Positions 1 to 45,438 of a stretch of DNA of 64,000 nt are shown here, piece by piece. The stretch covers positions 5,952,001 to 6,016,000 of the forward strand of contig JAHQIY010000003.1 in the NCBI GenBank assembly GCA_019054805.1, in the 5' to 3' direction. The notes beneath the pieces were generated by a model. That model was not told the DNA's origin, did not search any database, and saw only the letters and a list, made by a program, of their open reading frames with translations. The position numbers and the translations under genes are program-made. This stretch comes from Brachionus manjavacas. Taxonomy: Eukaryota > Rotifera > Eurotatoria > Ploima > Brachionidae. Within the stretch, counting starts at the first letter, position 1. Every line of letters begins with the position of its first letter.

Positions 1-2211
1 TTCCTTTTTGAAAAAAAATTTGATTTTGAGTTTTTTTTGCCAAAACTCGGGCAACAATTGCCAATTTAAAAAAAATCTAAATAGAAATAATTATTTAATT
101 AGAGAAAAAAGAAATGTTTTTTAATTCTTAATTAATTTAATTTTTGATCAAGTTCAATTAAATATTACTTTTAGAAAATCAATTACGACATTGTTAAATT
201 TCCTACAAAACTTCCTTCAATACAAAAGGAAAAAAATCAATTTAAAAAAGTCTGCAAAATTGCACGCTACTTTGAACTATTAAAAATAATACGAAATTAA
301 TTGGCACCAATTTTGTAGACATCCGGAGGAGGTTAAGCAAAATGTGTTTCACTTGGTTTCATTTGCAGGACAAGTTTTTTGCCATTGAAACAAAAGTCAC
401 AAAAAAATTTTTCTTTTTTGTATTGGAAATTTTGTGAAATTTTACAATGCCATCAATTACCAAATTTAGAATTTTGTCAATTTCATTTTAAGACTTTTTC
501 AATTCGCTTTAATTCGAAATTTTAAAGACATCAATATTTAACTTCGAATTTAAGATTTCGAATTAGTCAGTAAGTAAAGCTTTCATTTGACTTGAAAATT
601 ATTACACTCTCAGACAATCTTTTCCAGTGTGGAACCACTCTATTAAAAAAAAAAAACACGTCTAGCAGTCACATCAGCTGCCAAATCATCTCTAAACTTG
701 GCAGGAAAGCTTACCCTCTGAAATTTCATGCTATTGCCTTTTACTATTGCAGCACAACCCCTTGCTCCACTGATCTAGATAATGGGTCTCTGAATAATTC
801 AACATTTTCTAGTCTATTCTGCAATTTAAACATTTCAATCAGATCCCCACTCACTCTTCTTTCACTTAATTTTGTTAACCCCATTTTTGCCAATCTCATC
901 TCATAAGATATACCTCTCAAAGTCAATGAGTTTTTTATAGCGTGCCCTTGTACTTTCTCTAATGCATTCACATCTATATTTTTTATTACTTGGATTTCAG
1001 ACCTGCACTAAAAACTCTAAGCGTGGTCTTATCCTAGACCTATACAATTTTTTCCATTAGTTTTTCTCTCTACTGAAAAAAAACCGGTTAAGTATTCCAA
1101 GTTATTAACCTCTGGTGTTACATTCTCACTCACTTTGATGCTATTAACTAACCCTATGACTGACATCCATTCTTTCAAATTTCATAACCTTTTTAGCACA
1201 TAAACCATGCATCTCCATCTTATTTGATACAAAATTTGTTTTAAGTTTTAAGATTCCGGCCGGATAAATTAAATTTTTAAAGTATTAATGCGATCAAAAA
1301 TTCAAGTTTTTATATTTCTTTATTCCTTTTTTTTGTAAACGTTCAATTCAAAAAATTTTTTTCTGAAAAATAATCTCAAAAATCAAATAATAATTTAAAC
1401 GAGTTATTCATTGTAAGATTGAGATCCAATATTAAATTTTAGAGCTTGTTAAATTTTAAATTTCTGTTTTAATCTATGAATAGACAGAACCTTAAAATTT
1501 AAAAATTTATTTTTTTAAAGTTTGATTTAGTTAAAAAAAACATTAAAGATACAAAAAATTAAATAAAATTATTAAAAAGTAAATAATTTAATAATCCAAA
1601 TGGCAAGATTTTTTTTCTATTTAACTTTTTTGAAATTTTGAAATTATGCTGTTTAAAACTCAATGCTTAACCATGTTAAAAATTGGAAATGTAAAATAGA
1701 AAAAAAACCTTGCCAAATGAAACTCTATAAAATTAATCAACTTTAACCTTGAAAATAAAGTAAAAAAATTGCTTTAAAACAAACAAATCTAACTAAGTAC
1801 TTTTTGAAAAATTTTTGAATATACAACATTTAAAATAAAAAATTTAAATAAAAAAATTTTGTTAAAATTTAATCCTTATCTTTTGAACAAACTAACCTTA
1901 AAAAAATTAAGTAGAATCTAGAGTGAAGATACTTTTAGAAAATTTTTAACTCTAATGTAAAAAAAAAAACCTTCTGAATCTTATTACCAAAAAAAGTTGC
2001 GAAATGAGAAGACCCAAATTCGAAATTATTTAAATTTAATTTCGATTTTCAATACAAACAAAATTAGTATTTGATTTGAAAATTAAAATTGAATCAATTC
2101 TAGAATAAAAGGTAAAAATGGACTTGTTAAAAATTCTCTAAGAATTATTTAGAAAATAATTTTTATAGATTTTTTTGTATTAATAAAAAATAAAATAATT
2201 GTAAATTAAAG
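1..2211 (+). other. Intron of BCL11 copy 1 (3' part)
   Basis: The first about 203 bases match the start of the intron of copy 2 (about 11494-11655), apart from a roughly 38-bp indel and scattered substitutions. The missing upstream exon of copy 1 should therefore end only about 40 bases left of the window. The last about 15-20 bases before the acceptor AG (2210-2211, or 2216-2217) also match copy 2. The middle does not match and holds LINE debris (595-1250). The rest is A/T-rich with no recognisable content. Confidence 0.7.
595..1250 (-). mobile_element. Decayed LINE 3' fragment (reverse transcriptase C-terminal region)
   Basis: The minus-strand translation around 744-971 contains NALEKVQ, then KLSERRV-GDLIEMFKL. 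These are hallmarks of the region after the RT domain in CR1/Jockey-like LINEs, and they are close to the element at 60080-61482. Further upstream (to about 1250) the match continues with frameshifts, including a degraded stretch equivalent to MGLCANK-CKVMHF. It is a dead, 5'-truncated insertion in the intron of BCL11 copy 1, which helps explain why that intron is longer than in copy 2. Confidence 0.75.
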
Positions 2212-4661
2212 AATCAGAAAATGGCAATATGTCCACACCATACATTTACAAGTGCTCGGAATGCAGCAAATTATTTAGAAATGCGGCATTTCTTGTCGAG
2301 CACATAGAGTCAGATCACAATATGATATTGTGTAAAAAATTTACCAAAACAGGCGCCTCAATAGAACCTAAATCGAGCGTAATGCAAAATGCAAAACCGC
2401 AACAGGTTGCTCCAAAGACAATTAACTTTAAACCAGTGCAAGTGACGAACGGAAATTTAGCCACCACAAACAGACAGTCAATGTCGCCACAATCGGGCCT
2501 AAATTCGCCCAAGAAATTCAAGTCCAAGCATGACATTTCACCTCAATCAATGCATCAACAAAACAGTGGTACCATGCTTTCAGTGAATAATACAACGCCA
2601 ACATCCGCTGCTGCAATCGCTACCGTTCTGGCCAACAACAATTTGACAAAAAAATTCACCAACATAAATTTGGCAAATTCAAATCTGAGCCAACTGAAAG
2701 CAATAAAAACAACAACCAACGGTCTGACCATAATAAATAACAATTCTATGGGTGGCAACAGTGTCAACAGTGTCAACAGTGTTTTGAATAACAGTGGCGT
2801 TTTGAATAACAGTGGTGGCAACAATCGACTTGGCACAATTCGCAGCACAATCATACCAAATGGCGGCGGTGCAACAAACAAAATGTTGCCAACAAACAAA
2901 CCGCTTGTCAAGGAAGAGTACGACGATGCAGCAAATCAAACAAATGATGAAGACGAACAAAACCAAGAAGACGAAATAAACAACAACGCCAACAGCAGCA
3001 GCAGCAATGAAGAAGAGAGCGTAGAGTGTGGCAAAGTGATTTCAGCCAAAAGTGGTCCATCTCAGCTGAGCATAAAAATAAACTCATTGCTGAACCAGGC
3101 TGGCGCAGGAGGAGCTTCCAATTCAATTGCGGCAATCGCTGCCGTTCTAAACTCTCAATCAAACTCTTCTAATTCTTCGTCGTCAAATTCATCGACTTCA
3201 ACATCAGCATCACCTTCAACGTTGACCAACAGCCCAAATGTTCTATCTCAATTGAACAATCTTTTCACTCAAAACACATCTCCAAATTACATAAATTTGT
3301 TCAATCAAAATCTACTCAACTTGTTGAACAATCAATCGCAATCGTCACTCTTGTCACCATCGTCGACTTCGTCGTCGAGTGCTTCGTCGAACAAAATGCA
3401 GCCAAATGGTGCCATCGCATCGTCAAGCAACTCGAGCACTTTTATTCAAAACGGTGATGACAAGTCTCGCAACAAAAATCTGCTCGAGACCATAAACGAA
3501 TTGGCCAAATTCAACCAAGATCCGTCAAAGTTGAGTGTGACAAGTGCTACAAGTGTACAAAACAAAGTGAACATGCTAAATGGAAGTGGTGGCATGAGTG
3601 GTGGTGGAATGGGTGGTGGTGGAATGAGTGGTGGCGCAGGGAGTTGTGCAGTTGGCATGAATGGCCTTGTGAATAAGCCCAAGCGTGAAAAAAGAACAGA
3701 TACATGCGAATATTGTGGCAAGGTGTTCAAAAACTGCTCGAACTTGACCGTACATCGGCGCAGTCACACAGGAGAAAAGCCGTACAAATGCGAGCTATGC
3801 AACTATGCTTGTGCTCAAAGTTCCAAACTGACCCGACACATGAAAACTCATGGACGCGCCGGCAAAGAAACATCCTATTGTAAATACTGTTCGATGCCGT
3901 TCAGTGTGCCTAGCACATTGGACAAACACATGAGAAAATGTGACAAAAATCCCCAATTCAATCCAAACGCATCCTCTTCATCAGCAACATCAACAACAAC
4001 AACACCAACGCCAACGCCAACTTCAAATTCAGCTCTAACTCCAATCTCAAGTGCAAATGGTGCACACAGTTTCGGCCTAAGTCTACAAAGCAAAATAAGT
4101 CTTGCACAAAATCAACTGAACATGAAAAAGTCCATTCAACAAGCAAAACGTTTGCCAAACCAAATAAACATGATGGCTTATAGTATGCAGAACAATTTGC
4201 CAGCTGGTGTGCGCATGAACCATTTTAGTCAAGATAACGATTTGGATCATGAGAATGACGAAGAGTTGGATGCGTTGGCCGAAGAAGGTGACAATGAAGA
4301 CGAAAATTGTCTCGAGAGCACTATTGACAATGAAAATCAACAATACGACGAAGAGTACGGCGACGACGAAGAAGAACAAGCCATGATCAAGAATGACAAT
4401 TTATTCGACGAGGAAAATTTGGAAGATGAGTTCGATGAGTCCAATATGGACACAATGGAAAACGAGGAGCCTGGCGAAGATTTGACTCTGAAAAATTTCA
4501 ACCCCATTGCTCGTTTAAATCGTAGAAAGAACAACTCGAAAAAATCAGAGACCAACATGGACCCGCACCACGAACCGGATGACGATCTTGACGACGAGCC
4601 GTTTGCCGAGTCCAGTATCAATCAATTCAAATCACAAGAGATGGTCATGAACCTCACTTAG
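2212..4661 (+). CDS. BCL11: BCL11/CG9650-type zinc-finger transcription factor, copy 1, last exon
   Basis: This large 3'-terminal exon (ATG at 2229 is internal; the exon opens after AG at 2211 or 2217, both in phase) encodes a nuclear C2H2 zinc-finger factor. Residues from 2229: a finger at 9-30 (C9, C12, H25, H30), long Asn/Ser-rich low-complexity stretches, a Gly/Met-rich linker about 455-475, then the diagnostic C-terminal trio starting at residue 493. This trio begins with [16 protein letters not shown], continues with a HTGEKPYKC linker and a [19 protein letters not shown] finger, and ends with CKYC-MPFSV-STL-KHM. These match vertebrate BCL11A/B almost residue for residue. The vertebrate middle finger pair is absent. 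The tail after about 680 is very acidic. BCL11 proteins bind DNA and recruit repressor complexes. The upstream exon with the C2HC finger lies left of the window. A possible polyadenylation signal follows near 4689. Confidence 0.93.
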
Positions 4662-6890
4662 AATAATTTGACAACAAATCAAGAAAAAAATAAATAAATT
4701 TTGCATTTCTTTCATTTTGTTCTTAATTGTTTAAAAATTAGATGAAGTTACACATTGGGGGTCTAATGAGAAACTTACTCCGGTTACGGGTAGACATATT
4801 TTAAAATTTTACAAATGAGGAGTTGTGTTTTTTTTCCAAGTCAGTCGAGTTATTTAAAGCATACTTTAGAACGAATTGACCAATTTAAATGAAAATTTTT
4901 GTGTAAATTAATATTTTTTTTCTTTTTTCTTTGATGTTATATTTGTTTTATTCTTATTGAAACAGTTTTTATGTTATTGCCAATCGATTGTACCCGGATT
5001 ATAGAAAACTTGGATGTTAATCTCCTTTTTTTTGATTGCATTTTTTGAAAAATATGTGAGCAATCGATTTATTGCCGCCGGAACGAATTGCCGCAACATA
5101 TTCGCAGCATATTATTGTAAAACCCTTTTTTCTTTCTCATTGTTAGAAGTATATACAAACAAACAGTATTTATGAAAAGTCAGTGTAGACTCGAGTTTAT
5201 TTTGTCAAGCACTGGCTGCAAATATTTTTTTCTCTTGCAGTAAGTGTTGTTAAATTTTTATGGAAAAAAATCAAAAAAAAAAGTTTTAAAAGAAAATTTT
5301 CAATTTAAATGAAATTTGAACTTTTATTTTTTCTAAATAGGTAAAGTGTGTGTTATTAAATAAGTTGTAATTTTTATCTAATAAATAAACCATATTAATT
5401 TTATTTCTTTTCTTTTCGCTTCTTCTACTTATTTTCATACCTTTTTTGTTTTACTTTTTCCTTTATTTTTCACGTTTTATATCAGTTTTTTTTTTCTTGT
5501 TAAATTATTGTAACATAAAGTGATCAAATTTAAATAAAATTGAAAAAAAAACTAAAATTTTTATTTTAAATGAATGCAAATTTTTCAGATTTTCATATGT
5601 CAGCATAACGCAATATTAATTGCTGAATTTTGTTAGTTTGAAAACTACAAAATTCCTTAAGAAATTCGCAGTATTTAATAATGTAACCAAATATTTTATA
5701 AAAATTTTAATACCAAGAAAAATCATTTTTACAATCAGAGTCAAAATAAGAGATTATTTGAAAATAATGATCACTTATTTTTATATTAATTGGATTTTAT
5801 ATGAAAGGAAAGAAGACAAAGAGTTGATCAAGGTGAAATTATTTAGGTTTAAATTTTCCTTGATGTAATACAAGGTTCAGTTATCTGCCCATTACTCATT
5901 CATAAATTTCAGGCATGGTTCATGTGAAAGCGCATCGATACTTATAAAAGATTCTAGATGGAGTTCAGTTATCCGAGTCAGATAAAGACAGTTTTGGTTT
6001 TGTTTTAAATATCTAGTGGCAATCTAGTCATCACTGCGACAAATTTTTTATTTTTTTATTCATTCGAAATATATCTCAAAGCCTCGAAATTTATAAATTT
6101 TTATTTTATATTTTTTTAAATTTTTATACTTTAGAAAATAAATTTATTTCTAAATAATTTATTTCTATTACTAAAAAAATTGAAAGATCTCAAATTTTTT
6201 TGAGTTCTTGTGCTTTTTTATTAAGAAATTTTTTGATGATGAGTCAATTTGACTTGAAGCAAATGATTTAAATCTTTCATAAATATCAATAATTTGATTT
6301 TTGAATTTAAAATGTCAATTTAAAGAAAATTTTCGGAATCAATAAATAGTCATTTGAAAAGTTTTAAGATAGAAAATATGTCTCGTTGTTATAGTAAAAA
6401 ATGAAATTTTAAAATCGGCTCTATAACTTTTATCAGCTGATACATTCAATTTATCGCCTAAAAAAAGCTTGTTTCTTATTAAAAAATTTAAATTAAAAAT
6501 TGAAAATTTGTATCAACTATTTTTCAAGTCTTAAAAAATGATTTTCTTTTAAATTCGATTTGATACCAAATCCTTTATTATAATTTTAAATTGAAATTTT
6601 TTTATATGATTTTGATTTATTAAATTTTTTGTTTAAGAATCAGAAAATTATTTGATTTGACTAAAAAAAAAAATTTAAGTCATTGACTTGACTTAACTTA
6701 AGACTTGTGACTTAAAAACAAGTCTGTTTTTAATAATCATAATAAAGCTATAATGTGAATGACAACATGAAATGGGTTTTTAGGCTTCTATGTAATAGCT
6801 TTTTAAGTTTTGTGTGTCAATTTTATTTTAAAATTTGTTTGCTTCAATTGATAAGACTACTTTATTTGGAATATTTTCCCAAACGTTTGA
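4662..6890. other. Intergenic, A/T-rich
   Basis: This stretch holds the 3' flank of BCL11 copy 1 (AATAAATAAA near 4689). An open frame at 5620-5868 has lysine/isoleucine/phenylalanine-rich, A/T-driven composition and no recognisable motif, so I do not call it a gene. I see no other feature. Confidence 0.5.
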
Positions 6891-6899
6891 TACTTTGTC

Positions 6900-7340
6900 T
6901 ATTAAAAATTGTGACGTTGATCACAGTTTTTGGCTAATAGACTTTCTATCTGAAATTCGTGTGATCTTAATTTTTGTGTCGATTGAAAAGATTGTTAATT
7001 TTTAAACGTAATTTTATTAAACCAGTTAATTTCATCAAAACTCTTAACTTTTTTATTCATTTGTATTTAATCACCTCTAAGTCTCCTGATTTCAAGTGTT
7101 GTCAAATTAATTATTGCAATCTTTTTTCATAGGATCCTGATTTTAGGCACAAGTCTTGTTGCTAATCTTTGAACGGTTACGATGGCGTTTATGTCTTTCT
7201 TCAAGTAAGGTCCGCAAATTGTAACTCCATATTCAAGATGAAGTCTGTCAAAAGTTTTGTAGAGTCTTAATATTGAATACTGTGAAATTAAAATGTTCTG
7301 TCAATCATCCCAAAAACGTTTCTTGAATTTTTGATTGATG
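6900..7340 (-). mobile_element. Decayed LINE RT C-terminal fragment
   Basis: On the minus strand around 7140-7240 the translation reads like LEYGVTICGPYLKKDIN, then a VQRLATRLVPKI-like segment. This corresponds to the conserved 'LEYA-VWSP--KKDI-ALE-VQRRATKLVPKI' block after the RT domain of CR1/Jockey-like LINEs. A second, frame-shifted match near 7290-7340 (NVFGMIDRTF-like) is the preceding segment. There is no intact frame. It is an old copy, more diverged than the insertion at 8232-9013. Confidence 0.65.
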
Positions 7341-8230
7341 AATTCATGTGAGTTGACCACTTTAAGACTTCAGAAATTGTGAAGATTTAAAGTTCCAAAG
7401 TTGATTTAATCTCCATCTCTTTATATAAAAGCTTTCAATTCTTTTTCAATCTAATCTATTTAATAATATTATCTTTATAATATTTTAAATAAGCTATTTT
7501 ATTTTTTGGATTTTTATTAAAAGGGTTTTTATATTAATTGTTTAGATGCTAAAATAAAATTTTTTGGGTTTTTTTTTGCTCTCAAATTTATTCTAAAAAA
7601 GAACTAAAAATATTTCATTAAAATTATTAATGATTATTAGAAAAATTATTATTGAGTGTTAAAAAGAAATATCAATGAATTTAAATATTCGAAAAAAATT
7701 AATTTTTATGGTCTTTTCGTTTTCTTAGTTTTTTACTTTTTAGTAAATTTTGAAATATCTAAAATTTTATTATCTTAATTTAAATTTTCTTAATTTAAAT
7801 TTTGTTTTCTAAATGAAAATTTCTATTTTCATACCATATCCAAAACAAACGATGGCATATTTACCTATTAGATATGATACATTAACATTGTGCAGTAATA
7901 AAGGCCCATGACTTTGAGAATTGAGTATTTTATTTATTAAACAAAATAAAGAAAAAGAGAGAACAAAATCTACTTTTACAACAAAGATTGTGAAAAAAAA
8001 AATTTCAATTTAGTACATATTTTGCAATAACAACATAATATCCCTTAATAATTACCAAAAATACTCAAACTAACCCATAACTATATTAAATTAACTATTG
8101 ACACAACATTTCATTTTTTTTCAAATCAGTTTTTCATCCACATTAAGAAAGGCCTAAAAAATCATTTTAATTAAAAGTATATAAATAATTATTTAGAAAT
8201 TTTATTAATTTTTCTATTCACATTAAAAAT
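7340..8230. other. Intergenic, nothing recognised
   Basis: A/T-rich sequence with homopolymer runs. I see no coding pattern, RNA gene or repeat match here. Confidence 0.5.
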
Positions 8231-8231
8231 C

Positions 8232-9013
8232 AGGTGAACCGAGCTACAGGAATTCTAGGCCAGTTGAAAAGATCATTTAGATATTGGACCATAGATACTT
8301 GCAGGACCCTCTATTGTGCCTACGTAAGACCCCACCTGGAATATGCCGCTGTTGTCTGGTCCCCCCTAGCAAGAAAGACGCAAAGATGCTCGAGCAGGTG
8401 CAGAGATGGGCCAACAAACTGGTGCCCCGCATTAGAAACTGGCGCTACGAAGACCGTCTAGTCGTCCTTAGACTAACTCCCTTTAATGAGCGCCGTGTTC
8501 GTGGAGACCTGATACAGATGTTCAAACTCACCAAAGGCATCAACGAAGTGAGCTGGGTAAACCCCCGGCTCCCCCAAGTTCACTATCCCAACCCGGACCC
8601 GCCAGAGGTATCAGAGGTCATGCAAGAAGATTTTCCGGCCAGGCTTCCACCAAATGTCTACAACGGGCAAACACATTCACCAACAGGATAGTCAACGAGT
8701 TGAACGCCTTGCCAGTTATAGTGACAGACGCCGACTCCGTCAACAAGTTCAAGAATGGATACGATGCATTCCGGTCTAGTCAACAATCCTGAAGATGAAC
8801 ATTTATTTATAAAATTTTTCTCTTACAGCTTTTTCTATCGAGAATCTTAACTCTTACTTTGACCTAAAAATTTTAAACAGGATTTCTTTTTTCAGTACTT
8901 TCTATGTGTTATGTGCAAGGAGCTACCATGGGTGACCTCCTAGTAGGTCATCTCCGCAAGCTAGTCTTGCTGTAGCTAATGTATATTATTATTATTATTA
9001 TTATTATTTTAAT
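8232..9013 (+). mobile_element. 5'-truncated LINE (family A) 3' end with (ATT)n tail
   Basis: This is the C-terminal part of a non-LTR reverse transcriptase ORF, spread over two frames because of at least one frameshift. Visible blocks are ATGILGQLKRSFRYW, CAYVRPHLEYAAVVWSP, LVPRIRNWRYEDRL and ERRVRGDLIQMFKL, then an NELNALP-type C-terminus near 8700-8790. The 3' UTR follows with a hairpin (TCCGCAAG..CTTGC near 8950-8975) and an (ATT)n tract to 9013. It is much more G+C-rich than its surroundings, so the insertion is fairly recent. Closest relative in the window: 61850-62765 (minus), which shares protein blocks, tail and hairpin. Confidence 0.88.
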
Positions 9014-9232
9014 TAAGCTATTTTTAAATGATTTTTAATGATGTAAAACAAATCCTAATATCAATAAAATAAAACCATCTTTTTGGTTTTTCTGAAGAAT
9101 AACCAAAAAAAAAGGTATTCAAAGCACTAATTTTAAATTTTAGATTTTATAATTATTGAATATCGAGAATAAAAATGCGTTCATGTTAGTGTGAGTTAAC
9201 CATTTGACATAAAAATTAAAAATTTTTGTATT

Positions 9233-9995
9233 TGGTTTAATTTTTTGTGTTTTAATAACAAAATGTATCCAATGTTGAAAAAACACTGAAAAAGTGTGAT
9301 GTTTCAAATATTTTTTTAGCTCCGCGTTTAATCATGTGAGGCTGAAATGAGTCAAAAGGGATAAACCGTTTACCACTAAAATTGTATATAATTGGCAAGA
9401 AATTTAACCCTAAAAATAGAATTTTGACCCTTTTAACCCATTTGCCCTATTAGAAAATTTTTGAATTTTCTAATTAAATTATTTAATTCATTTAATTTAA
9501 ATTATTCGAAACAAAACAACAGTGAGTTTTAAAGAAGTCTAAAAAAAGGAAAGATTTTTTTTGTTTTTTCTCTAAATTCTTTTGGCAAACAACTAAAACA
9601 AATCCAATTTGAGCACTCACCTAACTCCTTATTTACACCACCGATTGCGTTTTTTAGACGTTTTAAGCTTATGTTTAAACATTTTGCTATTTTGTATGTT
9701 TGAAATATAAACTTGGTTTTTAAAAAATGGAAGAGATATAGGGGGTTTTAAAATTCGGTCACACTATTAACCCATAATCCCTTTTGACTAGGTTACCATA
9801 TTTTTTCCAAATTTCCAACTAAAAATTAAATTCATTCTATTTCACTAAAGAGTTTAATTTCAAATATGAAAATACTTGCAATATTAAATAAAATTTTTTT
9901 TTTGAAACTAAAATAAATATTTGAAACATCGTACTTTTTCAAATTTATTTCAACATTTGATATATTTTGTAATTCAAACACAAAAAATTAAACCA
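9233..9995. mobile_element. Non-autonomous inverted-repeat element C1
   Basis: The ends are inverted copies. The left begins TGGTTTAATTTTTTGTGT and the right ends with its complement. Within the arms a run including CAAAATGTATCCAATGTTG and a GATGTTTCAAATATTT motif is matched in inverse at 9900-9985. The same arms recur at 42942-44244 (C2), which supports a mobile family. There is no transposase. The interior holds a second, 14-16-bp inverted pair (9347-9362 and 9775-9790, core GAGTCAAAAGGGAT), possibly a nested insertion. Confidence 0.75.
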
Positions 9996-10859
9996 TATGT
10001 TATTTAGTTTTTTTTAATTTATTTTTCTTGATACGAGCATTGATTTATTTTTTTAAAATGGCTAGTTATAATAAATAAATACTTAAAAATTTAAGTTAAT
10101 TTAAAAACTAAAAATTAGCATCATTGAAACTGTAATTAAAAGAGTTTTTATTTAAAATTGAAATTATGGAAAAAATTAGCAATTATATTTTCAATTTAAA
10201 AAAAAATTAAAATGAGTGAAATTATTTATCCAAGAAAATGATCGGTCTTTTTGAAACCTTTTTATTTGAATAAAAAACCCTCTTTTGAAATTTTAAATAA
10301 AACAAAAGTATTTATAACACATATTAAAAAAATAAAGAGCATGCAAAACAACTTTAAATGAACTTGAATAGATTTTTTGAAAACAATTTATTTTAAGACT
10401 TGATTGAATTTTTTCAATTTGAGAAAAATTATTAAAAAATAAATTTTTTTTTTAAAATTAGATTTAAATTTCAAGTATTTATTTAATACTTCAGTCTGTA
10501 AAGATTAACTTAAATTATGAACTTTTTTCTAAATATTTCTTGTAGCAGAAATGATTAATTAAGTTCTTTAGATAATCTAATTCACTATTTTTTAAAAATC
10601 CAAATGATACTAATTATAGTATTTTTGAATTGCTCTGTACTTGTTAAAATGAAAAATTAATTTAAATTTGTTCAAATTTTTGTTTAAAAATCGCCAACAA
10701 AGTGAACTTTATTAATGCATAAATGATCTAAGTCAAATCCAGCTACCAACTGTATACCACCATCATGATTTTTAAATGAAGCTAACTCGCCAATAAAGCT
10801 AAATCTTTGCTAAGGATTAATACACTGCTAACCAAAAAAACCATTTGAAAACGATACAG
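9996..10859. other. Intergenic/5' flank of BCL11 copy 2
   Basis: A/T-rich sequence with no recognised gene. A possible 3' splice site AG at 10858-10859 lies just before the first visible exon of copy 2, so an additional short upstream exon may exist. I could not find one encoding the family's MSRRKQ-like N-terminus. Confidence 0.4.
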
Positions 10860-10864
10860 ACGCA

Positions 10865-13800
10865 ATGAATGAAAAGCATGCTGAAGAAATTCTGAATCAA
10901 TCGGAGCTGTCCGAATGCGGCGAGGACGTGAAGCCGGAAATAAAGTCGTCGCTCGAGTCGCTCAATGTGAATAAGCGAAAGAAGAAATCGGTGATACAAA
11001 ATGCGGCCGATGAGGACAGCGACGACAATCTGGACGATGAAGAAGTTGATCTTGACGAGAATAACAATGAATTGAAAATAAACGAAATCTGCGACAGTGA
11101 CATTAATGAAAATGGTCACGCGGCCTCTGACCTCGATCTAAGTCTATTCGATGAGAACAACAACTTGTCAGAGGACAACCATGAAGAGGAGAACTTTTGC
11201 AACCAGGATTTGATTGTGTGCGGCATGTGCCAGGCTGATTTCAGACTATCGAATATTATTGATTTTATTGAGCACAAAATAAACAAATGCTTGAACCATA
11301 ATCAAAAGTCACAAGATGCTCTACTGAAGAATTTGAACTCAAATCTGTCTCAGATTAATAATAAGCTGAGCACTGGCAAAATTAGATCCAATTATAAAGT
11401 TAATTCAGATGGCTGTGAATTAAATGAGAGTGATGATGCTCATTTGAATGGTAAGGGTTTTTTTTTTTTTCCAGCAAATTTTTTGTCCATTTTTCCTTTT
11501 TGAAAAAAATTAGATTTAGAGTTTTTTTTGCCAAAACTCGGGCAACAATTGCCAATTTAAAAAAAAATCTAAATAGAAATAATTATTTAATTAGAGAAAA
11601 AAGAAATGTTTTTTAATTCTTAATTAAACTTTTAGAAAATCAAACACGACATTGAAAATTTTTAAAACATTTAATTTTTGTAAAATAAGAAATGAAAATT
11701 TTTGAAACTGAAGTTTTCTTATTCCAATTTAAAATTACAGATAAATCTATTTACAACAACCATTGGAATTTCAAAAATTTGATTTAGTTTAAAAATGTGA
11801 AATAAATTAAAAAATTATTTAACGTAAAAATCGCTTTCTCTTTTTCGCTATCAAAGAATTTCTTTTGAGAGAATTATTTAAAACTATTAACTATCAAAAG
11901 AAATGTTTATTAAAATGAAATAATTGAATCACTATTGATTCATCATAATTTTTTTATTTTCTTATTAATTATTTTTACACTTTTAAAATACGTAATGTTT
12001 TACAATGATTATTTTTATCACTGTATTAGAATTAGGTAGAATCAAGTTGATAATATTTTTAGCTTTGCATAATTTTATATATTATTAATAAAAAAGTTAG
12101 ATGTTTTATTTTTGAAAAAAAATTTCGAATAAAAATAAAATTTAAATTTGAAGAAAATACGCAAAAAATTAGGATCAAATAACCACTTTAACATTTATTT
12201 AATCAATTGTAAATTAAAGAATCAGAAAATGGCAATATGTCCACACCATACATTTACAAGTGCTCGGAATGCAGCAAATTATTTAGAAATGCGGCATTTC
12301 TTGTCGAGCACATAGAGTCAGATCACAATATGATATTGTGTAAAAAATTTACCAAAACAGGCGCCTCAATAGAACCTAAATCGAGCGTAATGCAAAATGC
12401 AAAACCGCAACAGGTTGCTCCAAAGACAATTAACTTTAAACCAGTGCAAGTGACGAACGGAAATTTAGCCACCACAAACAGACAGTCAATGTCGCCACAA
12501 TCGGGCCTAAATTCGCCCAAGAAATTCAAGTCCAAGCATGACATTTCACCTCAATCAATGCATCAACAAAACAGTGGTACCATGCTTTCAGTGAATAATA
12601 CAACGCCAACATCCGCTGCTGCAATCGCTACCGTTCTGGCCAACAACAATTTGACAAAAAAATTCACCAACATAAATTTGGCAAATTCAAATCTGAGCCA
12701 ACTGAAAGCAATAAAAACAACAACCAACGGTCTGACCATAATAAATAACAATTCTATGGGTGGCAACAGTGTCAACAGTGTCAACAGTGTTTTGAACAGT
12801 GGTGTTTTGAATAACAGTGGTGGCAACAATCGACTTGGCACAATTCGCAGCACAATCATACCAAATGGCGGCGGTGCAACAAACAAAATGTTGCCAACAA
12901 ACAAACCGCTTGTCAAGGAAGAGTACGACGATGCAGCAAATCAAACAAATGATGAAGACGAACAAAACCAAGAAGACGAAATAAACAACAACGCCAACAG
13001 CAGCAGCAGCAATGAAGAAGAGAGCGTAGAGTGTGGCAAAGTGATTTCAGCCAAAAGTGGTCCATCTCAGCTGAGCATAAAAATAAACTCATTGCTGAAC
13101 CAGGCTGGCGCAGGAGGAGCTTCCAATTCAATTGCGGCAATCGCTGCCGTTCTAAACTCTCAATCAAACTCTTCTAATTCTTCGTCGTCAAATTCATCGA
13201 CTTCAACATCAGCATCACCTTCAACGTTGACCAACAGCCCAAATGTTCTATCTCAATTGAACAATCTTTTCACTCAAAACACATCTCCAAATTACATAAA
13301 TTTGTTCAATCAAAATCTACTCAACTTGTTGAACAATCAATCGCAATCGTCACTCTTGTCACCATCGTCGACTTCGTCGTCGAGTGCTTCGTCGAACAAA
13401 ATGCAGCCAAATGGTGCCATCGCATCGTCAAGCAACTCGAGCACTTTTATTCAAAACGGTGATGACAAGTCTCGCAACAAAAATCTGCTCGAGACCATAA
13501 ACGAATTGGCCAAATTCAACCAAGATCCGTCAAAGTTGAGTGTGACAAGTGCTACAAGTGTACAAAACAAAGTGAACATGCTAAATGGAAGTGGTGGCAT
13601 GAGTGGTGGTGGAATGGGTGGTGGTGGAATGAGTGGTGGCGCAGGGAGTTGTGCAGTTGGCATGAATGGCCTTGTGAATAAGCCCAAGCGTGAAAAAAGA
13701 ACAGATACATGCGAATATTGTGGCAAGGTGTTCAAAAACTGCTCGAACTTGACCGTACATCGGCGCAGTCACACAGGAGAAAAGCCGTACAAATGCGAGC

Positions 13801-14522
13801 TATGCAACTATGCTTGTGCTCAAAGTTCCAAACTGACCCGACACATGAAAACTCATGGACGCGCCGGCAAAGAAACATCCTATTGTAAATACTGTTCGAT
13901 GCCGTTCAGTGTGCCTAGCACATTGGACAAACACATGAGAAAATGTGACAAAAATCCCCAATTCAATCCAAACGCATCCTCTTCATCAGCAACATCAACA
14001 ACAACAACACCAACGCCAACGCCAACTTCAAATTCAGCTCTAACTCCAATCTCAAGTGCAAATGGTGCACACAGTTTCGGCCTAAGTCTACAAAGCAAAA
14101 TAAGTCTTGCACAAAATCAACTGAACATGAAAAAGTCCATTCAACAAGCAAAACGTTTGCCAAACCAAATAAACATGATGGCTTATAGTATGCAGAACAA
14201 TTTGCCAGCTGGTGTGCGCATGAACCATTTTAGTCAAGATAACGATTTGGATCATGAGAATGACGAAGAGTTGGATGCGTTGGCCGAAGAAGGTGACAAT
14301 GAAGACGAAAATTGTCTCGAGAGCACTATTGACAATGAAAATCAACAATACGACGAAGAGTACGGCGACGACGAAGAAGAACAAGCCATGATCAAGAATG
14401 ACAATTTATTCGACGAGGAAAATTTGGAAGCATTTTACAGCTCTGATTATTTAAATTGTAAATCCAGAGAAATTGTTATTAAAACAGCTCAAGCTAGTAT
14501 CTCCAGGCACGAAAATATTTAA
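10865..14522 (+). CDS. BCL11: BCL11/CG9650-type zinc-finger factor, copy 2, with altered C-terminus
   Basis: The exons are 10865-11450 and 12220-14522 (alternative acceptor 12226). The donor is G|GTAAGG at 11451, and phase 1 joins correctly. Exon 1 encodes an acidic, lysine-containing N-terminus and the family's C2HC finger (C119, C122, H137, C142; [20 protein letters not shown]), which matches CGQCQMNFPLGDILIFIEH of BCL11A. The large exon is virtually identical to copy 1 at 2212-4425, including synonymous sites. The difference I noticed is a 3-bp deletion plus a substitution in an Asn/Ser/Val repeat near 12795. All four C2H2 fingers are kept. After 14430 the sequence departs from copy 1, so the acidic tail is replaced by about 30 unrelated residues and a stop. 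It could be functional, a truncated paralogue or a pseudogene. ATG 10865 is the first visible in-frame start, but a short 5' exon may be missing. Confidence 0.88.
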
Positions 14523-15150
14523 TAAATTTTACCTTAAAAATTTTTGTTTTGATATATTTATAGTGATGAATTAATAATATATTTTTTATATATCCGAAAT
14601 TGATTTGGTATTGAAATATTACTTTTTTAGCTATTAAAAGATTTTTTTCTATTTTTAAAAAGTCGAAATATTTTAAATAATTTGATTTATTAAATTTAAT
14701 TTATCTTTGTTAATTTTGAATACCCATTAATTTTTTAAAATCTCATTTGAAATAAACTTTACCGTATTTTATAAACAAAACAGATTCTTTCGAAGAAAAA
14801 AGTCCTCTGTAATATAGCTTTTATGTGATATTTTTCAATTTTATTAATATTTTTAATATGTAAATTAAAAAAACGAACATTTTTAAATCTCTAAAATCAT
14901 CATTTCTTATATATTAAAATATTTATTCTTATTAATATTTTATTTTATGAATTGTTTACAATTTATTATTCATATTTGAGCTATAATATTTTTCCACCAC
15001 AAAACGAGTAAAATTACCAAAAATTAATGTAATATAGCTACTCCTACTTCATATTCACTAAATTATATAAAATCAACACTTTTCTCTTTATTTTCGCAAC
15101 AAATATATTTAATTCCTAATTAATTTTGTATTTCATAACTATTAATATAA
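14523..15150. other. Non-coding A/T-rich spacer
   Basis: This is the region beyond the breakpoint of BCL11 copy 2. It does not resemble the downstream region of copy 1. I see no gene or repeat signature. Confidence 0.5.
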
Positions 15151-15158
15151 AAAAATAG

Positions 15159-15690
15159 CTAATTAAAGAAAAATGAAATTAAAAGCCTTTTTTTAAGCAT
15201 TTTGGTACCACAATTTTCACTTAGTTTTCCGACAATATTGTTTGAAGTAGGAGGTAAAACCTCAATCATATATATTGGTCTACTGATGACATTAACTCTT
15301 TTGCTATATTCATGACTACTAAATTCATCAGACCAGAAGAACACTTGCTAGTTGTTCCATTTATTATCACTAATTTTTCTGGGATTTTCATCCTTTTATA
15401 TAAAATATATAGTATTACTTAAAGAAATAATTCTGTGTCACTTTTTGATCTTCTGGATATCTTTAGTAGGTTCCGAATCTTTGTTTTTTAGAAGGTTCTA
15501 GTCCATCATTAAATTATTGTCTAATGATATCGTCAGGCTTGTATCCTAAAGCCTCGAGTTCGATTTTATGTTGTTTGATCGCTTGATCCAGAAGAACAAT
15601 TGCTAGTTGTTTCATTTATTATCACCATTTTTTCTGAGATTTTCATCCTTTTATAATAAATATTACTAAAAGAAATAAAAATTGATTCGA
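15159..15690 (-). pseudogene. Unidentified decayed coding remnant with internal direct repeat
   Basis: The minus-strand translations read like coding sequence broken by stops. Around 15480-15620 there is KIELEALGYKPDDIIRQ, then LEPSKKQRFGTY; around 15200-15345 there is SDEFSSHEYSKRVNVISR and a C-terminal part with NCGTKMLKKR. I do not recognise the family; a transposase remnant is possible. A block of about 90 bp (15334-15427) is repeated directly at 15589-15679 with about 10% differences, so part of it has been duplicated. Confidence 0.4.
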
Positions 15691-19935: not shown

Positions 19936-20180
19936 GTTTGAGTTTATTTTTATGCTCAGCTGAGATGGACCACTTTGGACTTGAATTTCTTGGGCGAATT
20001 TATGCCCGATTGTGGCAACATTGACATTCTGTTTGTGGTGACTGAATTTCCGTTCGTCACTTGCACTGGTTTAAAGTTAATTGTCTTTGGAGCAACCTTT
20101 TGCGGTTTTGCATTTTGCATTACGATCGATTTAGGTTCTATTGAGGCGCCTGTTTTTAGTAAATTTTTTACACAACATCT
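19936..20180 (-). pseudogene. Third BCL11 fragment, internally deleted
   Basis: The minus strand carries [35 protein letters not shown], matching BCL11 copies 1 and 2 (equivalent to about 2326-2525 of copy 1) with several substitutions. It then jumps directly to the sequence equivalent to about 3050-3085 (GTGGTCCATCTCAGCTGAGC). About 520 bp is missing between, with only a 2-3 bp overlap at the join. The frame is lost after the join. There are no fingers, so it is non-functional, and it is continuous with the LINE fragment to its left. Confidence 0.85.
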
Positions 20181-20235
20181 TTTTGTTTTTTTTTCTTTGA
20201 AATTTAAGACAACCATTTTTGACAACCGTTAATAT

Positions 20236-24860: not shown

Positions 24861-27800
24861 ATGTCGCTCAACAAAACAAACCAAAACCGACGGTCGATAT
24901 TTAAAAATTCGGTCAAGCTAAACTTGAAGAGGTTAGACAAACCGATTAGCCATAAAGTCTTATTTAGTGCACTAGATGTCGTCCTGAACCAAGAGGAAAA
25001 TGATGCGATCACAAGTATCTACAATTCTCTTCAAACAAAGTTTGGATAATAGAGTTTAATGCTGCTTTTAATGTTGCCAAAATGTTCGATCGTGACATCA
25101 ATATCAATGGAACCATTTTCAGACTTGAAGATGCAAATAAAGTCCCTGATCTCAGAAGGTATTGTACTTTTCGTTTTCACTTCTTACCCTCTGATTTCGA
25201 GAATCATAGACTTGAAACCTTCTTTAATGCTGTTCGAATTGATGGACTTAATATTGAACACATTACTGAAGAAAAATATAAAGATAGACCCGAGAGGAAA
25301 AATGGTGTCAGAAGAGTGAGAATATCATTTCCAAAAGAAGCTGAGAACATTATTGGAAGCTTGTCAGGCCCCACAATAATGTATGGTTTAATTGTGTGTT
25401 GTGTCAATTGTTGGACAAAAGCAGAAATGCTATTTTTGTGATAATGAAGGACACAACATAGCGAAATGCCCTGACCAAAGGAACACTTTGCGAAAAGTGT
25501 CATCAGAAAGGACACTTGACACAAAAATGCTACATTGCCTTAAAGCTTAAGTCGCTTAAGAGGAAAAAGATTAAATACAATGATCTTTACATTGACCAAG
25601 AAGAAACGCAATCATTATTTGAAACTGACCAAAAAGATAATGATGAAAATGTGATGCCAAAAACACCTGGATATCAGCCAACAAATTTCAATGACGTAAT
25701 ATCCTAAATTAGCCCAAAAGACCTTAAAACTCCAGTTTTAGAAGAAGCTTTGGTAAGTCGTTTAAACGATTTTCTACCACTATGCCAGTCACCTGTCAAT
25801 GTACGCTCATATGATCAGAATGAGACTGAGAATTTTTTCCAAACCAAAAATCAAACCAAGAGATTTCCCGAATCTGATCCAAATGAAAAAGAGCTCACCG
25901 AAAATAAATCAAAGAAACCATTAGTTGTGTTAGAAAATGAAAACGACAATACCTTCGAGTCTGAATCAAACAGTTCAACAACTGAATGTTCAATTCAAGT
26001 AGATCAATCATCTAACGAAATTGGTCAGCAAACTGACAGTCAAAACAGCATTGAAGAAAATTTAGAATGAACAAGAAGATAAATAAATCAACTTTAAGAA
26101 CAAAACCTCTTAATTAAACAAGGTTTGTAATTACAAATTGGAATTGTTTTCATTTACTTAGTAGGGTTCATCTCTTAGCCAATTTTTAGCTCAAAAATGT
26201 CTCGACATTGTTCTAATCAATGAACTAAAGATAGATTTAAGTGAGGCAAATATTTATCTTGATTTTCACAATTATCAATTCATATCAAAACCACGCAACA
26301 AGTATGGAGGAGGAGTAGCTATTTTAATTAAAGAAGGCATTGAATTTATACAAGATTTCTCTTATGAGGAATTAAATTCCGAACTCCTTTGTATAAAAAT
26401 GAACTTAGGAAAGAATATTGAATTGTTTATATTTAGTCTTTATAATCCACCCAATGTGCTTCTGAACTTTGAGTTTTTTAAAACAGTTAATAAAAAATGT
26501 AGAAACTACATTTTAGGTGGTGATATTTAACACCAGAACAAAGGAAATAGGCTGCGGGAAAATGAAAATGAAAACGGCATAATGTTGGATAGAATAATCA
26601 ATGAGTTAGACTTTTCATTAATCAATGATAAGCGTCCTACTTTCAATATTTTTAATAGGAATTACTTTGAAATTCTTGATCTTTTTTTAGTTTCATCTTC
26701 ATTAATTGCCAATTAATTTTGTCGGACAAAATTATCGACTTTTGTGTCCTAAATAGTCAAGACATGACTAGTGGCCATTTCCCAATCCAAGCATCGATTT
26801 CTATGGGCTATCAATTAGAAAATAAATCAGCAGCTAAAAAGTTTAAATATAAGAAAGCAAACTGGCATTTATACAGCGAGATTTTTAAATTCTCAAATAG
26901 TGAATATCACTGAAAGTTCCCTCACAATAGATCAATTAAATGATAAAATTACAGAAAAAATTATTTCTACTTCACATAAAAGAATTCTTTATCATTCTCA
27001 GAGAATCTACAAAACCAGTCTTTCCCCGAACATTGTTATTCTGATAAAAGAACGCAGAAAGTCAGAAGAAACTTTCAAAAAACTCGCTGTCAAAATCTCA
27101 AGAAAAAATTTAATCAACTTACATTTGAGTTAAAGGCCTCTTTTAAAAAATTCTGGAATCAAAATTGGTTTGATTTTATTGAGAAAATGGGAAAAATCCA
27201 CTGACAAGTAGACCATTCTGGAAAAAAATAAATAAATTTAGATCAAAAGAAGGATCAAATTTAATTCCAAATTTGTTTTTAAATGACAATGAATTCAAAA
27301 CTAATGAAGAAAAGGGAAAATGCTTTGGAGAACTCCTATCTTCAATATTTAGTCCTAATTCTGATTTAATAGATCTTGATAAAGATTTCGAAAAACTTAA
27401 TTCTAGATCTGAATTCTTTAGAAATTATGATCAAGCTAGTTTCAATGATCCAATTTGCTTAAATGAATTAATTGTGGCTTTAAAAAGATTGAAAAATGAA
27501 GCGGCATCAGGACCTGACCAATTTCATTATCTTATGTTACCTAGAAATTCATTAATAGAAATAATAGAACTTTTTAATTTATCTCTTTGAGAAGGTAGAG
27601 TCCCTAATACATGGAAAACATCGAACATTACTATGATTCAAAAAAAAGCCTCTTCTTTACAAGATCCTTTAAATTATAGACCAATTAGTATAACGAGTGG
27701 TTTAGGAAAGCTCCTGGAACGCATAGTATTTTCAAGATTATACAATTATTTGGGAAAAAATTCACTCCTTATCCAGGAGCAATCTGGATTTAGGAAACAC

Positions 27801-28953
27801 TGGCGAACATCAGATAAACTTTTCTTTTTAATTCAAAAAATTTTGGAATCATTTAATAGAAAAAAAAGAGTTTGCAGCCTTTTTTTTGATATTTCTTAAG
27901 CCTTTGATAGGGTTTGGCATGAAGGTCTACTTTTTAAATTGATTAAAATGAATTCACCTCATTACTTGACTAACTGGATTATAAAATAACTGCAGGTGTT
28001 CCTCAAGGCTCAGTAATTAGCCATCTTTTAATTAGTAAATATATTAATGACATCCCCAAAAGAAACAAAACAAATAACGAATACTCTCTGCTTTTCGCAG
28101 ATGATCTAGTTACATTCTTCATTTATAACAAAAAAGGGAACCTAGAAAATAAGATAAATAAATACACCAACGAAATAGAACAATGGCTTATTAAATGGAA
28201 AATGAAGATATCAGTTGAAAAGTCGTGTTCAGTAGTCATTTCTAGGGAAAAAAAAGAGGGTGATAATCAAAACTTAAAAATCTTTGGATACACAATAGTG
28301 AGCCAAAAAGAAATCAAGTTTCTTGTTATTAAATTTGATTCTAAGTTAAACTTTAATATACTAGTAGACGAAATTTAAGAACGCTGCAACAAAAGGCTAA
28401 ATATTATTAAGATATTGTCAAACAAAAAATGGGGTCTCAATCAAAACACACTAGGAAATTTATATAAATCTTTAGTCGGATCGATTTTAGACTATTCTTT
28501 TCCTAGCTTGAATTCATTTTCAGAAAATAATATCAAAAAACTACAAGCAAATCAGAATACAGCAGTAAAATCTATCCTTAAGTAAAATATGATACTCCCT
28601 CCAACATCGTGCAACATGAAGCTTTTAATAAACTAAAATTACAAACAGTCTCGAATTGTCTTTTTGAGTTGAGTGAGAGATATGTTAGGGCAGGACTGAG
28701 TCATTCTATTCCATTGGTTGAAAGACTGGTGAAAGAATTCAAAGAAGGTTAGCTACCTTACTATTTCTTCTTTTTTTCCTGAAACTTGAACTATTTAAAC
28801 ATGTGCCACATGTAACAATCTTTTCCAATTTATGTCTTTTCAACTTTCATTTTTTAGCTTATTTACTCTATTTTGATTCTTTTTTTTTTTTTTTATCTAA
28901 TTTTATTAACTTTAATTTTATTTTTATTTTATTTTTAACTTATTCTGAAGGAT
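24861..28953 (+). mobile_element. Near full-length but decayed LINE (family B) with gag-like ORF1, APE and RT
   Basis: ORF1 (about 24861-26070, frameshifted) ends its core with two CX2CX4HX4C zinc knuckles (CYFCDNEGHNIAKC about 25424-25465 and CEKCHQKGHLTQKC about 25490-25532; a frameshift separates them). ORF2 starts near 26115: endonuclease blocks ITNWNC, INELKID, NKYGGGVAILIKEG, SLYNPP, GGDI (then a stop in place of the GDFN context) and DMTSGHFPIQAS. RT follows from about 27490: NEAASGPDQFHYLMLP, NYRPISITSGLGKLLERI, EQSGFRKHWRTS, AFDRVWHEGLL, AGVPQGSVIS and the intact FADDL box (about 28096). A segment of the palm is deleted near 27985. The C-terminus runs to about 28750, then a T-rich 3' UTR that stops abruptly at 28953, where another LINE begins. 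It is not active as it stands. Confidence 0.88.
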
Positions 28954-30189: not shown

Positions 30190-31345
30190 CAAATTTAAAA
30201 AAACCCTTTCACCTTTAGGATCTGATTTTAATTATTTATTTATTTGTTTTCTGTACCATATCTCTCACTCAACTTGAGACTGTTAGTAGTTTAAGTTTAT
30301 TATATGCCTCATGATGCAAAATGTTGGAGGGAGTATCATATTTTAGTTTCAAGATGGATCTAACTGCTGAATTTTGAATCACTTGTATTTTTTTAATGTT
30401 GGTTTCTGTGAATGAATTTAAACAAGGAAAAGAATTATCGAGAATTGATCCTATTAAGGATTTGTATAGATTTCCTAATGTTTTGGGTTTAAGGCCCCAT
30501 TTTTATTCGATAGATATTTAATAATATTTAGTCTTGAGTTACAGCGCTCTTTTATCTCATCCACCATTAAACTAAATGTAAGTTTTGAGTCTAATGTAAT
30601 TCCTAAGAACTTAACTTTTTCTTTTAGATTTAAACTGTTTTCATATAATTTTAGGTCTAGATTAGTTTTTTTTCTAGAGTTTTTTTTAAAGATCGTGTAG
30701 CATGACTTTTCAACAGATATTTTCATTTTCCATTTGAAAAGCCATTTTTCAATTTCTTTTAAGTACTTATTTATTAAACTCTCGAGATTTCCTTTCTTTT
30801 TAAAAATAAAAAAAGTAGCTAAGTCATCTGCAAAAAGAAGAGAGTATTGGCTATTGGTCTTATTTCTTTTAGGTATGTCATTAATGAAAATGCTGAAAAG
30901 AAGCGGACTAATTACTGATCCTTGTGGAACCCCTGCTTTAATTAAGTATTGGTCACTCAAATGTCCGTTTACTTTTACTATAAAAGATCTGGAATCGAGA
31001 AATGATCTGATCCAGTAAATAAGATAAGGAGGAAGATTAGTTTTAATTAGCTTATAAATTAGTCCATTATGCCAAACTCTATCAAAGGCTTTAGAGATGT
31101 CAAAATATAAACAGCAGACTTTTTTCTTTCTATTAAAAGATTCAACTACTTTTTGTATAAGAAAATAAAGGTTATCCGCTGTGCGCCTATGTTTTCTAAA
31201 TCCTGATTGCTCATTTATAAGTAGGTTATTTCTTTCAAGAAAATGGTATATTCTTGTATAAATAATACGTTCAAGTAACTTACCAAGGCAACTTTTCATA
31301 CTAATAGGACGATAGTCAGAAGGGTCCTCAGTGGGAGGAGATTTT
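30190..31345 (-). mobile_element. 5'-truncated LINE family B copy with long intact RT frame
   Basis: The minus strand 31299-30475 is a 274-residue open frame covering RT: LGKLLERIIYTRIYHFLE, NEQSGFRKHRRTADNLYFL, YFDISKAFDRVWHNGLIYKL, AGVPQGSVISPLLFSIFIND, LLFADDLATFFIF (catalytic FADD) and KWKMKISVEKSC. It continues, frame-broken, to SDERYG-type C-terminal sequence and a tail at about 30225-30255 with the TACAGAAAACAAATAAATAA motif shared with 32215-32255 and 43190-43220. The 5' end is lost in the RT N-part near 31345 (PTEDPSDYRPI). It is younger than the copy at 24861-28953. Confidence 0.88.
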
Positions 31346-32870: not shown

Positions 32871-41592
<8,722 letters not shown>

Positions 41593-42059: not shown

Positions 42060-42940
42060 ACGATTGCTCCTCGAAATTTTCTAAGAGTAAAAATTTGTTA
42101 ATAGAAAGTGCATAAAATAAAATTTGCTTATGGTTTAGATAAAATTAAATTTTAATTTTCCAGTGACAAATCTAACATAACATTTAGTCTTCACTCGGAA
42201 ATGGATCAAAGCAATCTCATAAAATTCAAATTAAATAGTAAATGAAATTTTGAAACGAAATTTTTATAAATTGTTTAATGGACTTTGATGAAGAGTGAAG
42301 ACTTTAGCTTATCAATTTTTTTTGAGTTTCATTTCAAAATCGTGAATTTTAATTAATTTTAAAGATATTTTTATTTATTTCAATTTCTTATGTAAATGGT
42401 GATGTTTAAGCTTCATGACTAAAACAATAAAATAAATTAGTTCAAAGTATTTTCAAATAAATACTTCAATAAATATTTTTTAACAATTTAAAAAATATTG
42501 ACAAAACAAAGAAAATTATAATTTTAAAATATTGTTTGAATTACATAAGAATTTCGTACTAATTTCGTCTTTGTTTATTCCTCGAGACATAATTAATATT
42601 GTCGTAAAGAATGATATGCTTGTTAAATTGAATATTTAAAAATAAGGTAGTCATTTGGTTGAACAATCATTAATATTTAAATATAATATTATTTCAATTT
42701 TTTGATTGACTAAATCATCAAATTTTCTCTTAACATTGATCACACAAATACAAAAAAATTTAAAATAATAAATTAACTTCTAAAGTTAAATACTCAACCG
42801 CTTAATATTGCTATTAGAATAGATTAAGCAGAAAGTGATAAATCTATTTTAATTTTTTATTTTTTTTAAAAGTACAATAGAAAAAAGTCTGATAAGTTAC
42901 TCCCTATTTTTACCTTTTATTATTTTAATTTCAATTAGAT
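42060..42940. other. Spacer, nothing recognised
   Basis: A/T-rich sequence, possibly containing the 3' UTR of the orphan exon. No other signal seen. Confidence 0.4.
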
Positions 42941-43171
42941 TTGGTTTAATATTTTGTGTTTGAATTACAAAATGTATCCAATGTTGAAATAATGTTGAAA
43001 AAGTGCGATGTTTCAAATATTTTTTTTCAGTTTCAAAAGAAATAAAACTTTTAGCTAATATTTTAAAATAATTTCAAGCATTTTCATATTTGAAATTAAA
43101 CTCTTCAGTGAATTAGAACTTTTATTTGAAAATTTGCTGAAAAATATTGAAAATTCTTTTTTTAATTTTAA

Positions 43172-43919: not shown

Positions 43920-44244
43920 CTTTTCTTTTTAAATTTCTTTTTTTCTTTTTAGACTTTCGTTTTGATGCATTTTGAAAAAAATCAATTTATAAAAAAAGGA
44001 AAACAGAGCCTAGATACTTTTTAGAAATATTTATATCTTAAGAAATTTTCATCTTAAAATCATCTTATCACAAATCTAAAGTCAAAATTTATTAAAAAAA
44101 AAAAAGAAGTTTTTCATGCTTGCAATATTAACTTTAAATTATTTTTTTTTTGGAACTAAAAAAAAATAATTGAAATATCGCACTTTTTCAATGTTATTTC
44201 AACATTGGATACATTTTGTAATTCAAACACAAAAAATTAAACCA

Positions 44245-45438
44245 TTTTGATAAAAATATATTTTTACAAAATAAAAATTAAAAAACTATCTTGTTTTTGT
44301 TCTTATAATTAAAAATTTATTCGGGAAGTATAAAATGATGCATCAATTTTTATTTAAATATCATAATTGATGCTGAAAGTTCATGAAATTTTAAACCTAT
44401 ACTATGATTTAAATTCGTAAAATTTTTCCGCGAATTGTTGTTTAAAATTTGAAAAAAAAATTTTTGTTAAACGTAAACAAAAGCATTAAAATTAATAAAT
44501 TTTTTTATTTAGAGAATAGATCGAATATTGATAGAAATAGCATTAAATTTTAAATTTTTTTGACTTTCTTTCAGGCATAATTAATTTTTTTTTTGAATTT
44601 AATGCTTAAAATTTCTTAAAATTTTTAATTTTTAATTTTTTGTAAAATGTCTAACCACTTTTAATTTTTGGGTCTTCTTCTTTTCTTAATTTTTGTTAAT
44701 GATTCACCATTTTTATTTAAGAATCTAGATACCAAAATTTTGCAGATTAATGCAACAATTTTTAAAGACTGTTTAAAGACCTTGAAACAGTTTTGTCAAG
44801 TTAAATTTTACAGTAAAGAATTTAAATAAATGGTGGACTTTTTTGATATTTTTGAACAAAATTGATATCATCTAGCCTTACACTTTCTGCATAATTTTTG
44901 AAAAAAAGAAAAAGTTAAGTTCAGAAAAAATGAAAATAGGTGATGAAGACATTCTATAATATCATTTTACTATTCTTATTTAAATTTAAAAAGAAGCCTA
45001 AAGAAAAATGACTCAAGAAATTTGAATTATAATTTAAGAAACAGCAATAATCTAATTGAATCATTTGAAAGCAAAATCGAAAAGTGTAGAAAAAACCTTG
45101 AGTATCGTTATTCAAGATTAATAAATTGCTTTGTGATCAAGAGACCAATTTTAAAAATTTCAATATTTTAGCTTTCAATTTTCAAAAACATGAACTTGGT
45201 TTATATAGATTTTGTGACAATATTTGTATTAATTGACTTAAATAGCTTGTTGTTAATTTTTTTTAAATAACTATGTAATTAATAGCTTTTTTGAAATAAT
45301 ATAATTTTTTGATTAACTTATTAATTTGATTTTTTTAATTAACCTTGAAATTTTAAAACCACCAACTCTTGCCTATCCCTCTTTGAAAATAAGACTAACT
45401 TCAGGTTCGTTTCTTTTAGAGTTATTCAAATCAAATAC
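44245..45438. other. Spacer, nothing recognised
   Basis: A/T-rich DNA with no coding or repeat pattern that I can identify. Confidence 0.4.

Follow-up and report, generated by a model that had tools for sequence, protein, structure and literature searches.

The window analysed here, a stretch of 64,000 nucleotides of the Brachionus manjavacas genome, carries two adjacent BCL11-type zinc-finger gene copies that lie head-to-tail, both on the + strand (Table 1). Positions are window coordinates, in which negative numbers lie upstream of base 1 and 0 is the last base before the window; searches of the genome covered 114,169,980 bases in 61 contigs. Exon 1 of copy 1 is located upstream of the window, with the ATG of the shared frame at G000:C3:5951374 and the donor after 5951959. 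This exon ends at -41, where a GT donor follows, and its frame is open from -794, making the 5' extension a candidate coding sequence that may be translated. Exon 1 and exon 2 join in frame in both copies.

Table 1 Features of the two BCL11-type copies and of a related fragment, in window coordinates.
Feature	Position	Strand	Remarks
Intron 1 of copy 1	1..2211, first 40 bases upstream of window	+	
Exon 2 of copy 1	2212..4661	+	810 codons, ATG 2229 to stop
Near-identical block, copy 1	2194..4425	+	Counterpart 12201-14430 in copy 2
Old-divergence 5' part, copy 2	10717..10885	+	Counterpart -794..-606 in copy 1
Exon 1 of copy 2	10865..11450	+	BCL-11A-like CCHC finger; donor GT at 11451
Near-identical exon 1 core, copy 2	10886..11450	+	Counterpart -605..-41 in copy 1
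Intron 1 of copy 2	11451..12219	+	
Exon 2 of copy 2	12220..14522	+	Common to both copies up to 14430
Third, decayed, inverted exon 2 fragment	19939..20186	-	

The CCHC finger of copy 2 was recovered with PF25491 (E = 7.2e-13, 48.8 bits against a cut-off of 27), and in the genome search the finger scored 52 bits in each copy. A C2H2 finger lies near the start of exon 2, and a three-finger block (residues 485-577 of copy 1, all of which are also present in copy 2) matched the BCL11A chain 9e6r_A in phmmer (E = 1.6e-44). BCL11A proteins carry an N-terminal basic repressor-binding motif. A loose pattern for this motif was run over -8000..-600 and 4662-10890 in all three forward frames. Its two hits are unconvincing and both lie upstream of copy 1; a short or divergent upstream exon could escape a search of this type.

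The two copies differ at both ends. After 14430, copy 2 continues into an unrelated tail of 30 codons followed by a stop, and the 78 codons with which copy 1 ends are missing from it. Upstream of the ATG at 10865, its frame contains four stops within 150 bases, the nearest at 10829, and the other two frames contain four and five stops, opposite the open frame of copy 1.

Relatives, repeats and neighbouring features

Genome-wide, exon 2 DNA matched the two copies and a third fragment only. This fragment aligns with 12 substitutions and a one-base gap over 212 columns plus a further 38 identical bp; about 520 bp are missing between its two parts, with an overlap of about two bases at the deletion, and 11 of the 12 changes are non-synonymous. 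The fragment runs into a stretch that, judged by eye, resembles reverse transcriptase. At the protein level, among the 50 matches listed, those beyond the two copies and the fragment were at best finger matches of 42-60% identity. On another contig, G000:C2:3075031-3076126 combines a BCL-11A-like CCHC match with a following open frame that bears C2H2 fingers, apparently a distant BCL11-like relative; this paralogue was considered as an outgroup, but its distance was judged too great for donor and recipient to be told apart.

The introns differ in repeat content. Three parts of the copy 1 intron (approximately 248-451, 575-1102 and 1494-1718) match dispersed repeats with at least 46 matches in the genome, the intron itself included, and the search with 11628-12200 of the copy 2 intron matched only itself. 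Dispersed repeats of roughly 85-190 bp, in both orientations and 84-92% identical, also occur at 9230-10004, 42933-43118 and 44116-44245, so that some short dispersed repeats are located between the two BCL11 copies. The stretches 27727-28658 and 30270-31264 form an inverted pair (74-75% identical), the second of which holds a reverse transcriptase frame (PF00078). Further along, a single open frame of 1896 codons on the - strand (47031-52721) bears HEAT repeats, DUF3535 and SNF2 helicase domains, and we take it to be like BTAF1/Mot1. Frames at 39045-39404, 55032-55724 and 56353-56718, all on the - strand, carry DOT1, DnaJ and RING-finger domains.

Distribution of divergence between the copies

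The first-pass annotation had described the large exons, 2212-4425 and 12220-14430, as almost identical, and realignment bears this out, with exactly one substitution and one 3-bp indel between them. The substitution is a synonymous C/T difference and the indel is in-frame; only 8 bp separates the two, both within a short tandem repeat, and they could be one local event. The near-identical block starts at 2194/12201, roughly 15-18 bp inside the intron and with a gap of one base right at its 5' boundary, and stops inside coding sequence at 4425/14430, which is where homology ends. The exon 1 core shows a single difference in 565 bp and no gap. Its block begins 21 bp past the ATG of copy 2, within the exon, and takes in young intron on its other side; thus the limits of the blocks are not exon borders.

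Immediately upstream of the exon 1 core, the flank at -794..-606 differs at 27 of 155 aligned bases (17%), with nine gaps; 5 of the 27 differences fall in its last 21 aligned bases, which are coding sequence in either copy. On the intron side, divergence is 2.3% over the first stretch (-40..135 vs 11451-11627; 4 of 175 bases, three gaps) and 14% over the next (136..201 vs 11628-11662; 5 of 35 bases, one gap). Taken together, the alignment of -40..201 with 11451..11662 has 9 substitutions over 210 bases, one gap of 31 bp and some small gaps; the large indel reported for this region on first pass is indeed there, although its length had been given as 38 bp. Similarly, the earlier statement that the introns match at their ends and differ in the middle holds for the 5' end and for the middle, but at the 3' end the copies share merely the short stretch that belongs to the exon 2 block. 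In two comparisons of the rest of the intron, 202-700 and 1700-2193 were aligned separately to 11663-12200, and the scores did not exceed those of Markov shuffles (134 and 138 of 200 shuffles reached them); sensitive blastn of -3000..8000 against 8001-40000 found no further homologous intron stretch.

The homology of the diverged 5' flank is real. From -900 to -606 the alignment scored 159, against 44 for the best of 200 Markov shuffles, and without the shared coding bases (-900..-640) it still scored 135.5, against a best shuffle of 45 among 200. Two separate blastn matches lie within this flank (39 bp at 89.7% and 41 bp at 87.8%; E = 1.6e-6 and 5.8e-6). Homology was not detected further 5', where 28 of 200 shuffles reached the score of -2500..-800 against 9000..10720. 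Crucially, a single homologous stretch passes directly from old to young divergence. A recent duplication of the whole gene followed by insertions only was rejected, since the 5' flank holds true old homology. For the 3' flanks (4426-5200 vs 14431-15200), one of five regions tested, the score of 45 was below the best shuffle (48.5) and was reached by 2 of 200 shuffles; the alignment consists of A+T runs and was not counted as residual homology.

Origin of the near-identical blocks

We counted synonymous sites by the Nei-Gojobori scheme, leaving out gapped columns. The exon 1 core, with 105.5 such sites, shows no synonymous change and exon 2, with 470, shows one, which gives 1 in about 575 overall, whereas the adjoining flank and intron differ at 36 of 365 aligned sites (Fisher P = 1.3e-14), and at 31 of 344 when the 21 coding bases are removed (P = 5.1e-13). 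The comparison of exon dS with intron divergence that had been proposed as a check therefore returns clearly unequal values. Furthermore, the longest identical run spans 1627 of the 3159 aligned sites, which contain 38 substitutions; none of 20000 permutations reached it (largest run, 938), and because the permutation treats coding and non-coding sites as equally constrained, it is read together with the synonymous comparison. Here, we show that the two copies form a mosaic of old and young divergence in which identity extends to synonymous sites.

Selection on the nucleotide sequence itself could in principle have held the exons identical since an old duplication, and the near-identity does cover the zinc-finger coding parts. 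Such selection would have to have frozen about 575 synonymous sites, including those in low-complexity Ser/Asn tracts, over a period in which neighbouring sequence diverged by 17%. Moreover, the third fragment, no longer a full exon, did change: its 12 substitutions in 249 sites of all classes exceed the synonymous changes of the copies (P = 4.6e-6). We regard this explanation as exceedingly improbable.

The mosaic is probably best explained by an old tandem duplicate in which two blocks were recently homogenised through interlocus (ectopic) gene conversion. An old tandem duplication of one BCL11-type gene would have produced the two head-to-tail copies, whose flanks and intron would then have drifted until little homology remained. 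More recently, one paralogue would have been copied over the other in two blocks, namely the last 565 bp of exon 1 with the adjoining start of the intron, and nearly all of exon 2; the mechanism would be homologous repair, halting where homology became too poor. At -605/10886, a discrete near-identical tract stands beside diverged homologous sequence (27/155, then 1/565), synonymous sites are homogenised along with the rest, and the order and orientation of the blocks, the splice signals and the reading frame are all kept. Copy 1 was probably the donor and copy 2 the recipient, because the open frame of copy 1 extends further than that of copy 2 in both directions. Recent gene conversion had already been put forward on first pass; it is the best-supported reading and the contrast behind it is stronger than described, but its framing as exons against introns is not entirely accurate, because the young block extends over the first 175 bases of the intron.

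These intronic bases also bear on whether a reverse-transcribed copy 1 message might have repaired copy 2 exon by exon. Two block edges are indeed near the splice donor and acceptor, the copy 1 intron contains repeats, a reverse transcriptase frame is present elsewhere in the window, and the start of the intron is more diverged than the synonymous sites (4/175 vs 1/~575, P = 0.012). Several of the intronic differences, however, fall at homopolymer runs, which may mutate faster, and the exon 2 block takes in 15-18 intronic bases. The start of the intron shows 2.3% divergence against 17% in the old flank, and therefore the exchange at the DNA level included the intron. Repair from cDNA is thus very improbable. 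For conversion between the genes themselves, the somewhat greater divergence of the near intron than of synonymous sites leaves some doubt that the exon 1 block arose in a single event.

At exon 2, no diverged homologous flanks were found beyond 2194/12201 or 4425/14430 except for near-chance scores, and the classic flanked tract is not seen there because both block ends border sequence without detected homology. Such sharp ends against non-homologous sequence are also what one would expect if an old partial duplicate, consisting of the 5' flank and perhaps decayed exons, had later acquired new copies of both exons through template switching or non-homologous insertion, with no homologous conversion involved. 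The nearby inverted and deleted fragment shows that a piece of exon 2 has been moved by rearrangement at this locus. Yet two insertions would need the right order and orientation to preserve splice sites and frame, and the exon 1 block has homologous sequence on either side of its left edge, as expected under conversion. Overall, renewed duplication of this kind seems unlikely.

An artefact of assembly or consensus was considered as well, in which a mis-join or polishing placed copy 1 sequence into copy 2, or a haplotype remained uncollapsed. Polishing based on transcripts would affect exons only, and would not readily give intron identity at both splice sites; in addition, each copy keeps its own differences, and the contig spans 9.76 Mb. 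The uneven haplotype assembly offered as an alternative on first pass finds no support, and haplotype duplication was judged unlikely, given that the downstream flanks are unrelated and no second full copy of either turned up. Searching the assembly with 4400-5600 and 14380-15300, with very common words skipped, returned the query regions, the exon end that both copies share and partial matches of repeat-like character, with no second full copy. We consider an artefact of any of these kinds distinctly unlikely.

The points that speak against gene conversion are the unflanked exon 2 block, its length, an unraised GC content at third positions and the somewhat higher divergence of the near intron. 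GC3 in the exon 2 block is 0.43, compared with 0.58 in the unshared C-terminal part, which is short, and 0.50 in the neighbouring 1896-codon frame. A raised GC content in converted tracts is frequent, not obligatory.

The locus illustrates that one divergence figure cannot date a duplicate, as the pair would appear brand new by its exons and old by its flank and intron, and that even a copy with intact-looking exons may depart from its paralogue at its 5' and its 3' end. As BCL11 genes are regulators sensitive to dose, the expression of a second, near-identical DNA-binding copy would be of interest. One speculative reading, to which we give a rather low probability, is that copy 2 is a working second BCL11 gene with the same fingers but without the C-terminal 78 residues, saved from decay by repeated conversion from copy 1 and possibly modifying the action of the full-length protein or competing with it.

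Comparison with known systems

The three-finger block is nearly identical to that of BCL11A. Like the BCL11/ZFAM2 genes described in PMC2889900 (BCL11A, BCL11B, ZNF342 and Drosophila CG9650), the rotifer copies carry a CCHC finger in exon 1; unlike what is set out there, two copies are neighbours here, and one lacks the 3' coding end of the other.

Conversion between paralogues has mostly been reported for exons, and the faster divergence of introns may impede it, according to the part of PMC3966223 drawn on here. The surviving Caenorhabditis tracts given there cluster at 50-200 nt within a reported range of 12-2,958 bp. Neighbouring paralogues are involved in both cases, and the exon 2 block, at 2.2 kb, is long but within that range. 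A pseudogene that apparently converts with its neighbouring gene has also been described (PMC1274310).

In the passages of PMC2720389 considered here, the human pairs DDX19A/B, TUBG1/2 and BMP8A/B are presented as cases of concerted evolution by gene conversion. As at the present locus, these are nearby paralogues in which some exons are near-identical and other parts have diverged, that is, mosaics. High similarity across a pair of exons and their intervening intron was the criterion by which those pairs had been selected, whereas here the similarity of the intron is mostly lost. GC content was raised in most of the published comparisons, with a rise at third positions in rodent Bmp8a/b that was not significant, and is not raised at third positions here. 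The mammalian cases also rest on orthologue phylogeny, while the BCL11 pair is read from one genome. As far as these excerpts go, the process is already well described (PMC2720389, PMC3966223), and the rotifer pair represents a real, well-supported yet ordinary phenomenon in an unusual gene.
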